A stretch of DNA of 64,000 bases from Clostridia bacterium. Lineage in GTDB: Bacteria; Bacillota; Clostridia; Christensenellales; Borkfalkiaceae. Position 1 is the first letter of the stretch, and every line of letters begins with the position of its first letter. Position numbers and translations under genes: made by a program. The stretch lies in assembly GCA_017399945.1 (NCBI GenBank), contig JAFQAQ010000003.1, positions 62,001-126,000 on the forward strand. The letters run 5' to 3'. This document shows, one piece after another, positions 9,796 through 11,329 of the stretch. Below the pieces are notes generated by a model. The model searched no databases and had not been told where the DNA came from. It was given only the letters and a program-made list of their open reading frames with translations.

Positions 9796-9806
9796 CGTAT
9801 CTTTTT

Positions 9807-10157
9807 AAGACGGTCTATAAGCCGGGTTCTGTCTAGTGCGATCATCTATCTAGACGCAAAGTTCCCAATGCGTTCGAGCGATATTTTATTAAGTCCTTAA
9901 AGTGGAACTCCTTATATAAAGGACTTGTCAATCTTGCTTTGGGTGGGGTTTACATTGCCTCCCACGTTACCGTGCGAGCGGTGAGCTCTTACCTCGCCTT
10001 TTCAACCTTACCAATAAATTGGCGGTAATTTTCTGTTGCACTTTCCTTAAAGTCACCTTCACCGGGATTTCTCCGGCACCCTGTTCCTATAAAGCCCGGA
10101 CTTTCCTCACGGGCAGTTTCTCTCTGCCCCCGCGACCGCACAACCGACTTAAAAAGT
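9807..10157 (-). ncRNA. rnpB: RNase P RNA (bacterial)
   Basis: On the minus strand the RNA begins near AAGTCGGTTGTGCGGTCGCG and contains the universal P4-region block GAGGAAAGTCCGGGCT (near 10090-10110). It continues with CAACAGAAAATTACCGCC and ends with the conserved ACAGAACCCGGCTTATAGAC block near 9815-9833. The 5' and 3' ends pair to form P1. The length of about 345 nt fits. It is the catalytic subunit that cleaves pre-tRNA leaders; its protein partner is rnpA at 1.9 kb. The exact 5' end is uncertain by several nt. The family subtype (A or B) was not determined. Confidence 0.95.
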
Positions 10158-10163
10158 AAGGTA

Positions 10164-10192
10164 ATTTTAACCCTTTTTATAAGTTTTGTCAA
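10164..10192 (-). promoter_or_regulatory. Promoter of rnpB
   Basis: On the minus strand TTGACA (10187-10192) and TAAAAT (10164-10169) are 17 nt apart, placing the start about 7 nt before the conserved 5' end of the RNA. Confidence 0.8.
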
Positions 10193-10204
10193 GGAAAAAT
10201 AAAA

Positions 10205-10239
10205 AAGACGTAAATATACCGTTGGTAAATTTGCGTCTT
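10205..10239 (-). terminator. Terminator downstream of the amino acid kinase operon
   Basis: An imperfect hairpin (AAGACGTAAATATACC against GGTAAATTTGCGTCTT) is flanked by A and T runs on both sides. It would end the minus-strand kinase/small-ORF transcript. The 10158-10266 spacer otherwise holds the rnpB promoter only. Confidence 0.7.
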
Positions 10240-10266
10240 TTTAGTTTAAGGTGTGCAGTTAATCTT

Positions 10267-10444
10267 TTATAAATCGTCTGCATCCTGAACCGGTTTTTCG
10301 TATTTATCATAAATATCCACACCGGTATAGCTACCGTTTACGTCAAAACAGCTTGACTGATTACTTACAGTTTTTACAGGCTTTTTGCTTTGATGCGGTA
10401 GTAGTCTTTTTGTTTGCTGACTTTTTACTTTTAGTATCCTTCAT
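10267..10444 (-). CDS. Small ORF, complete only with a change of reading frame
   Basis: An ATG at 10442-10444, preceded by a strong AAGGGGG ribosome site, opens a 27-codon ORF (MKDTKSKKSANKKTTTASKQ, then KACKNCK, stop at 10361-10363). The other frame continues with a protein-like sequence, SSCFDVNGSYTGVDIYDKYE then KPVQDADDL, to a stop at 10267-10269. The NGSYTG and PVQDADDL blocks look like those I recall from short Clostridial hypothetical proteins. Joining the frames near the A-run at about 10382-10387 would give a protein of about 58 residues. The cause may be a sequencing error, a mutation or programmed frameshifting. The function is unknown. It follows the kinase gene. Confidence 0.5.
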
Positions 10445-10504
10445 AACTTCCCCCTTGGTAGTATTATGTGTAGGGAAAAAAGTTATATACACGATTTATA
10501 AAAA

Positions 10505-11329
10505 TTATTTTACGCCGATACGGGTTGCCCTTGCCTTACCGGACAAAATATCTTTTAAGGTATGTTTAGCAGAAGCGATAATAACGGTAGTGCCTTGTTT
10601 TACTGCGTCCTTAACGTATTCTAACTTTGCTTTTGCGCCGTTAGCGCCTGCCCTAGACGCGCCGTTGCAGTAGTTTTCGCACTCGTTAATATTTTCAAGC
10701 ACTTCGTAAACGTCCTTACCACTAATACTTTCAATTAAAGTGTCGGGGTTTTTGCTGTCTTTATAAATACCTTCGGTACTAGTTAAAATAAGCAAGGTCT
10801 TTGCCTTAACTAAACAAGCTATTTGCGAAGCAGTTTCATCGTTATCCACGCACTCAACCACCTTTGCGTTTTTGGTTTTTAGCGATTGTATCTCAAATCT
10901 TCTGCTTTCTTCGGTGCTTATAGCGTCGTTATAGTTAATAATAGGTATAGCGTTTTGCTGTTTACAACGAACGAGCATTTGTTTTAAGTGTTCGCGTTTT
11001 TGTGGGTCGTTAAAATGTTGGTGTTCAACCAAAACTTGACGGATAGAATACTTGGAATCTACGTATTGACGATAGGTTGCCATCAAAATAGATTGACCTT
11101 GCGCCGAATAATCGGTTTTAACGTCTTCGGGATCTCCTTTAAGTTCCTTGCCCGTTCTTTTAACGTAGTCTAGCCTACCCGTTTCGGTAGCGCCACTAGT
11201 AACCCAAACGTATCCGGGGCGAAGCTCGGAAGAGAGTTTTGCAATCAAAGTATAGTCCAAGATATTGCGCTCCTTATCAATAAGCGCCATCGAGCCGATT
11301 TTTCCAACTAATTCGGTATCGAATTTCAT
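10505..11329 (-). CDS. Amino acid kinase family protein, glutamate 5-kinase-like
   Basis: A 274-residue single-domain amino acid kinase. Family motifs are VWVTSGATETGR (phosphate-binding glycine loop), IPIINYNDA, VDNDETASQIACLVKAK, LLILTSTEGIYKD, and a C-terminal GANGAKAKLEYVKDAVKQGT block in the place of the substrate/ATP lid. The overall order resembles ProB (glutamate 5-kinase, proline synthesis), but the C-terminal PUA domain is absent and proA and proC are not nearby, so the substrate is unsure. It has an AAGGAG site, starts 18 nt after the dipeptidase stop and is followed by a small ORF, so the three probably form an operon. Confidence 0.7.
   Translation of the reverse strand: MKFDTELVGKIGSMALIDKERNILDYTLIAKLSSELRPGYVWVTSGATETGRLDYVKRTGKELKGDPEDVKTDYSAQGQSILMATYRQYVDSKYSIRQVLVEHQHFNDPQKREHLKQMLVRCKQQNAIPIINYNDAISTEESRRFEIQSLKTKNAKVVECVDNDETASQIACLVKAKTLLILTSTEGIYKDSKNPDTLIESISGKDVYEVLENINECENYCNGASRAGANGAKAKLEYVKDAVKQGTTVIIASAKHTLKDILSGKARATRIGVK

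Follow-up and report, generated by a model that had tools for sequence, protein, structure and literature searches.

A small bacterial gene probably expressed by programmed +1 frameshifting at an AAR-UAA stop

The small gene at positions 10267–10444 of the 64,000-nucleotide stretch of DNA analyzed here (the window) is probably expressed through programmed +1 ribosomal frameshifting at an AAR-UAA sequence, as a single gene with predicted products of 27 and 58 amino acids. Ribosomes would initiate at a strong site, translate a first reading frame (ORF1) rich in Lys, Ser and Asn, and meet UAA with Lys-tRNA in the P site. A fraction would terminate there and release the 27-residue peptide, and another fraction would advance by one base into the second reading frame (ORF2), yielding a 58-residue protein with a C-terminal GSYTG..PVQDADDL domain. 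The same arrangement recurs in about 70 related genomes, and it is this recurrence that points to deliberate recoding rather than to a broken gene.

ORF1 (10361..10444, minus strand; 27 codons plus TAA) encodes MKDTKSKKSANKKTTTASKQKACKNCK*, a Lys/Ser/Thr/Asn-rich peptide of 27 residues with the C-terminus CKNCK; AAGGGGGAAGTT lies directly 5′ of it, and an AAGGGGG ribosome-binding site, similar in relatives, occupies 10450..10456 (minus strand). Its last codon, AAG (10366..10364), and the TAA that follows (10363..10361) form the predicted +1 frameshift site AAG_TAA (10361..10366, minus strand), with the Lys codon in the P site and the stop in the A site. The +1 frame has no stop from just past the ORF1 ATG until 10269..10267, and it carries both NGSYTG and PVQDADDL. 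The part of it past the ORF1 stop, NQSSCFDVNGSYTGVDIYDKYEKPVQDADDL* (10267..10362, minus strand), is delimited as the ORF2 portion by family alignment, and its GSYTG motif (10321..10335, minus strand) is identical in all 19 members aligned. Shifting by +1 at the end of ORF1 joins 27 and 31 residues into 58. The description in the earlier note, of a 27-codon ORF with a strong ribosome site whose next frame reads on through NGSYTG and PVQDADDL to a joined protein of about 58 residues, is thus borne out. Between the ORF1 start and GSYTG, the window's ORF2 frame contains neither ATG nor GTG nor TTG. On one flank of the two frames lies a probable glutamate 5-kinase gene (10505–11329; named by eye) and on the other the RNase P RNA (9802–10151), directly upstream of which is a strong promoter-like TTGACA-N17-TAAAAT (window positions 10192..10164, minus strand). 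An inverted repeat read in the sequence, AAAAGACG..CGTCTTTT (10201..10244, minus strand), is a possible terminator downstream of ORF2; a scan for consensus terminators did not pick it up.

Homologues, for which the earlier note had suggested a search, show the two-frame layout recurring within the genus and in other genera, beyond chance. A DNA search of 61 genomes, including the window's own, gave a match in 22, several of them full-length, and most of the genus members viewed share the two-frame layout. A profile of ORF2, built from 19 C-termini, found matches in 33 of the 44 genomes in the window's genus (18 of 18 good-quality ones) and, over 15 of 18 genera, in 339 of the 398 genomes in its family, Borkfalkiaceae. 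Among the GTDB contigs, relatives are encoded in at least 244 of the 596 pattern matches listed, of which 80 were kept; titles among the matches listed include Candidatus Borkfalkia, Candidatus Coproplasma, Candidatus Gallimonas, Christensenella, Oscillospiraceae and Oscillibacter. In our labels g1 is the window's genus, g28 is tied to Coproplasma, g29 to Gallimonas and g26 to Borkfalkia; NCBI taxonomy places Borkfalkia under Christensenellaceae and Coproplasma under Eubacteriales incertae sedis. The named genomes are largely metagenome-assembled (MAGs), and the loci compared below come from part of the 339 matched genomes; for g28, 70 loci were fetched and the ORF2 pattern matched in 54.

The ORF2 family is undescribed. 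The window's ORF2 matched no Pfam or NCBIfam model and its ORF1 no Pfam model, three ORF1 peptides that were scanned had no Pfam match, and one single-ORF relative gave weak, sub-threshold Pfam and NCBIfam matches; none of the Pfam or NCBIfam models tried makes a convincing known family for ORF2. PVQDADDL occurred in no paper found in the literature, nor did any paper found combine Borkfalkiaceae with frameshifting. Two further loci are of note: in one (L205, G209:C10) ORF2 appears to be tandemly duplicated, and in another, from a 58%-complete MAG (L007, G034:C12), codon 2 of ORF1 is TGA and the remainder is conserved.

The 176 distinct loci comprise 137 with two ORFs, 30 with a single ORF and 9 classed as unresolved, the last two groups being excluded from the two-ORF counts. 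Some relatives outside the genus (for example L115, L084 and L017) have a single ORF with a basic N-terminus continuous with the same C-terminus; in L115 the basic N-terminus leads straight to GSYTG. The window's own genome also holds a second copy, a single-ORF paralogue (L139, G000:C24) with the sequence MKKNKGSKSDTLGSYTGVPTDGGKPTQDADDL. The two-ORF loci divide according to whether the frame of ORF2 contains an ATG, counting from 30 nt upstream of the ORF1 stop. Where it does (65/137), ORF2 is found in frames 0, +1 and +2 in 4, 30 and 31 loci, respectively. Where it does not (72 loci), ORF2 is in the +1 frame in 71, distributed over five genera (48 in g28, 18 in g1, 3 in g42 and 1 each in g40 and g36), and in the sole exception, L137, a GTG overlaps the ORF1 stop. 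Stricter definitions give the same outcome: the +1 frame is used in 43 of 43 loci without ATG, GTG or TTG from −30 onward, in 71 of 71 without any of these from −8 onward, and in 22 of 22 without a start codon anywhere past the ORF1 start. The lack of start codons was rejected as stand-alone proof, since base composition predicts it in a fraction of 0.51 and it was seen in 43 of 70. Of the 52 two-ORF loci in g28, 24 carry a GTG or TTG in the frame of ORF2 at −30 or later, and 4 carry an ATG there; among the +1 loci of g1, 5 of 23 have an ORF2-frame ATG from −30 onward.

These counts bear on termination followed by reinitiation at a non-AUG codon near the ORF1 stop, which would make ORF2 a separate peptide. 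The ATG class has the look of ordinary translational coupling, its ATGs lying close to the ORF1 stop (for example, TAATG or TGATG), and reinitiation is the likely mode where the ORF2 ATG overlaps or directly follows that stop. Also in its favor, loci without an ATG carry F, I, L, S or A where others show M. In one +2 locus (L170, g30) the sole start candidates are a TTG at −7 and an ATG at −25, so that initiation with no ATG close to the stop is conceivable for it. However, reinitiation leaves the frame free, yet the class without ATG is in +1 in all but one of its members; and the junction has no shared start-like codon, the +1-frame codons there being AAT, AGT, GAT and a few others, followed by AAN in 68 of 70. 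We therefore regard reinitiation as an unlikely explanation of the window's layout.

Programmed frameshifting, by contrast with an independent start, ties the two frames together, and this is visible in the distance between them. An independent ORF2 start would leave the distance from the ORF1 stop free to vary by one or two bases, as it does in the ATG class. In the 70 loci used for this and the following comparisons (the 72 without ATG, minus L137 and the g36 locus L189, which has CGA_TAA), the linkers from stop to GSYTG are 25, 28, 31, 34, 37, 40, 43, 49 and 76 nt long, all 1 modulo 3. On a tree of the neighboring rubrerythrins, 44 g28 loci without ATG underwent about ten changes of linker length and no change of frame, whereas 8 g29 loci with ATGs underwent four changes of length, three of which altered the frame. 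Since 66 of the 71 cases come from g1 and g28, the independence of these cases depends on the linker changes and on the three smaller genera. The codon phase of substitution agrees with the linker lengths: across the 70 loci variable sites fall mainly on frame-0 third positions up to position −1, and in the GSYTG region past the stop they fall on third positions of the +1 frame. ORF1 of the relatives without ATG mostly ends in [ND]C[KR], and synonymous changes in ..[ND]-Cys-Lys-stop persist to its very end, so that frame 0 is the one in use throughout ORF1, as far as its stop. Taken at the level of sequence, the comparison shows that ORF2 is under protein-level constraint, that its frame is locked at +1 where there is no ATG, and that the constraint switches frame at the stop.

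This switch also bears on two further explanations. In a single genome, the loss or gain of one base in a pseudogene or through an assembly error would look identical to the layout of the window, and the earlier note had accordingly left frameshifting, mutation and assembly error side by side. Programmed frameshifting is now strongly favored among them; since 71 genomes from five genera have this +1 layout, with coding constraint before as well as after the stop, mutation or misassembly is very unlikely for the window's genome. Transcriptional slippage on an A-run, giving a shifted mRNA, has a candidate in the window in the run of five A (10386..10382) about 20 nt upstream of the stop, near the position (10385) where the earlier note had placed the junction. 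That placement finds no support, as no homopolymer is conserved and the switch in codon phase is located at the stop codon, and a shift on this run was rejected. Moreover, between −12 and +9 the longest homopolymer is at most 5 in 70 of 70 loci and 2–3 in 32 of them, and from the ORF1 start to GSYTG only 2 of 70 have a homopolymer of 7; slippage is thus very improbable.

The ORF1 stop is TAA in 68 of the 70 loci and TGA in 2, and the codon before it, which would occupy the P site, is AAA in 38, AAG in 25, AGA in 4 and AGG, AAT and TCC in 1 each, so that AAA_TAA is found in 38 of 70. The A-site codon after a +1 slip would be AAN in 68 of 70. Among the considerations that count against frameshifting, the rarer P-site codons AGA, AGG, AAT and TCC would be expected to re-pair poorly in the +1 frame (TCC_TGA is the antizyme site), and UAA, which is recognized by both release factors, is normally an efficient stop. 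Additional signals were considered as triggers. SD-like 4-mers between −16 and −3 occur in 6 of 70 loci without ATG and in 16 of 65 loci of the ATG class; an internal Shine–Dalgarno sequence of the prfB type was rejected. Single-sequence folding of four stretches in the 70 loci gave mean z-scores of −0.24 to −1.25, with z < −2 in 4% to 21% of loci (21% for both the −40..+40 and the +3..+120 stretches), and by this measure there is no clear stimulatory RNA structure upstream or downstream; a weak or clade-specific structure may be present at the junction. The conserved Cys codon was rejected as a trigger, being replaced by Ser in three g28 loci (L234, L237 and L238) and by Asp (GAT) in L270 and L271, as was an unusual tRNA, none having been seen among the tRNAs in 30 of 39 matched loci.

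We infer from these sequences that the slip takes place on the P-site codon beside the stop and that both products exist, in a ratio that is likewise inferred. The earlier note had considered two products possible because ORF1 has a plausible ending of its own, and this remains plausible: the ORF1 ending is conserved, and in one congener (L021, G002:C49) ORF1 (MRNKKKAAKNCGNKNKTESDCK) is kept together with a promoter-like stretch and a ribosome site, and ORF2 has decayed, the ORF2 profile giving no match in that genome. The latter locus suggests that ORF1 may have a role on its own.

Upstream of ORF1 in the window, a −35-like element of a sigma-G/F-type promoter, GTATA (10486..10490, minus strand), is separated by a 17-nt spacer from a −10-like element, CATAATA (10462..10468, minus strand), with a CATAATACTAYCAAGGGGG-type leader found in many loci of the genus; both elements are motif matches. 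The motif G[ACT]ATA-N15–19-CA[TC]N[ACT]TA, a pattern written after the g1 upstream sequences had been seen, was matched in 25 of the 32 two-ORF loci that belong to the genus, that of the window included, versus 0.6% of shuffled sequences. The window's genome encodes several sporulation-like sigma factors, the best of which scores 335 bits against TIGR02850 (sigma-G; curated threshold 457); PF00269, for alpha/beta SASP, has no match in this 93%-complete genome or in the window's ORF1 and ORF2. A similar leader, CATAATA..AGGGGGAAGTTATG (L027, G000:C1), lies some 4.5 kb away from the best sigma-G match, ahead of an unrelated protein of 54 residues, MNDKFFMGVILGMLGG.., which may belong to the same regulon.

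In other genera the pair is linked to rubrerythrin. In g28 and g29, the end of a rubrerythrin gene and the start of ORF1 usually share a 4-nt overlap, and a rubrerythrin-like gene lies upstream in those loci of g42, g37, g38 and g36 whose flank is long enough. These genes were recognized by a C-terminal pattern, and the one copy scanned (L237) matched PF02915 at 78.5 bits, had a rubredoxin-like domain and scored 176 against the NCBIfam rubrerythrin model, below its cut-off of 200. The promoter pattern in its original form occurs in 7 of 31 rubrerythrin upstream regions; loosened (a relaxed −10, an altered start rule and an altered length examined), it occurs in 17 of 30 in other genera, a count that is less independent. 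The window's genome has a rubrerythrin on contig 17, with neither the motif nor an ORF1/ORF2 pair, and a second rubrerythrin match on contig 8. In Clostridioides difficile, the rubrerythrin CD2845 is under sigma-G control and belongs to the forespore, according to PMC3789822. It resembles the present case in that a sigma-G-like motif precedes the pair-linked rubrerythrin in those 17 of 30 loci of related genera, but differs in that the window's pair is set apart from rubrerythrin. The rubrerythrin neighbors, the sigma-G-type motifs and CD2845 are the grounds on which a spore protein tied to peroxide or metal handling is proposed. With low confidence, then, the window's gene would have become detached from a rubrerythrin-ORF1-ORF2 unit for peroxide defense or metal handling in the spore, and a sigma-G-type promoter, predicted from its motif, would direct its expression in the forespore.

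On a further, tentative reading, a bare AAR_UAA slip of the kind that is nearly the default in Euplotes may serve a bacterial lineage as a forespore switch, extending a basic peptide of 20–40 residues into a rubrerythrin-linked spore protein; release-factor supply or the state of the ribosome might change in the forespore and so lead to a slip at UAA. If true, a case in some 70 genomes with UAA and with neither an SD nor an evident structure would mean that a much simpler signal suffices in bacteria, and it would link recoding to spore formation and to rubrerythrin. The ATG-bearing and single-ORF relatives are natural, ready-made controls.

The best-known cases of prokaryotic recoding, as listed in PMC3711429, are IS elements, prfB and dnaX. 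In PMC3711429 and PMC12421855, the prfB consensus is given as CTT_TGA_C with an internal Shine–Dalgarno sequence approaching AGGGGG. The window's own genome has a prfB with the classical +1 site CTT_TGA_C; at this gene (L288, G000:C14) the site is kept, and the preceding stretch, GGAAACGGGACACTCT, is without a good AGGGGG element. Like prfB, ORF1/ORF2 would be a bacterial +1 shift at an in-frame stop codon; unlike prfB, it has mostly AAR_TAA, no internal SD, a position at the end of an ORF of 20–41 codons and a gene of unassigned function, and a CTT P-site codon of the prfB type precedes the stop in 0 of 70 loci. Translationally coupled bacterial pairs are matched by the ATG-bearing relatives of ORF1/ORF2, but in the window's class ORF2 lacks a start codon and its frame is fixed at +1. 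For Euplotes, PMC10235951 describes +1 shifts at stop codons before which AAA is the commonest codon without being required, and for which stimulators were not found. The present loci share with the AAA_UAR sites of these ciliates the prevalence of AAA before the stop (38/70), the lack of an SD and the lack of clear structure by single-sequence folding; they differ in that Euplotes is a eukaryote with abundant sites, whereas here one bacterial gene family was examined. By analogy, Euplotes is the nearest described behavior to that predicted for the ORF1/ORF2 site.
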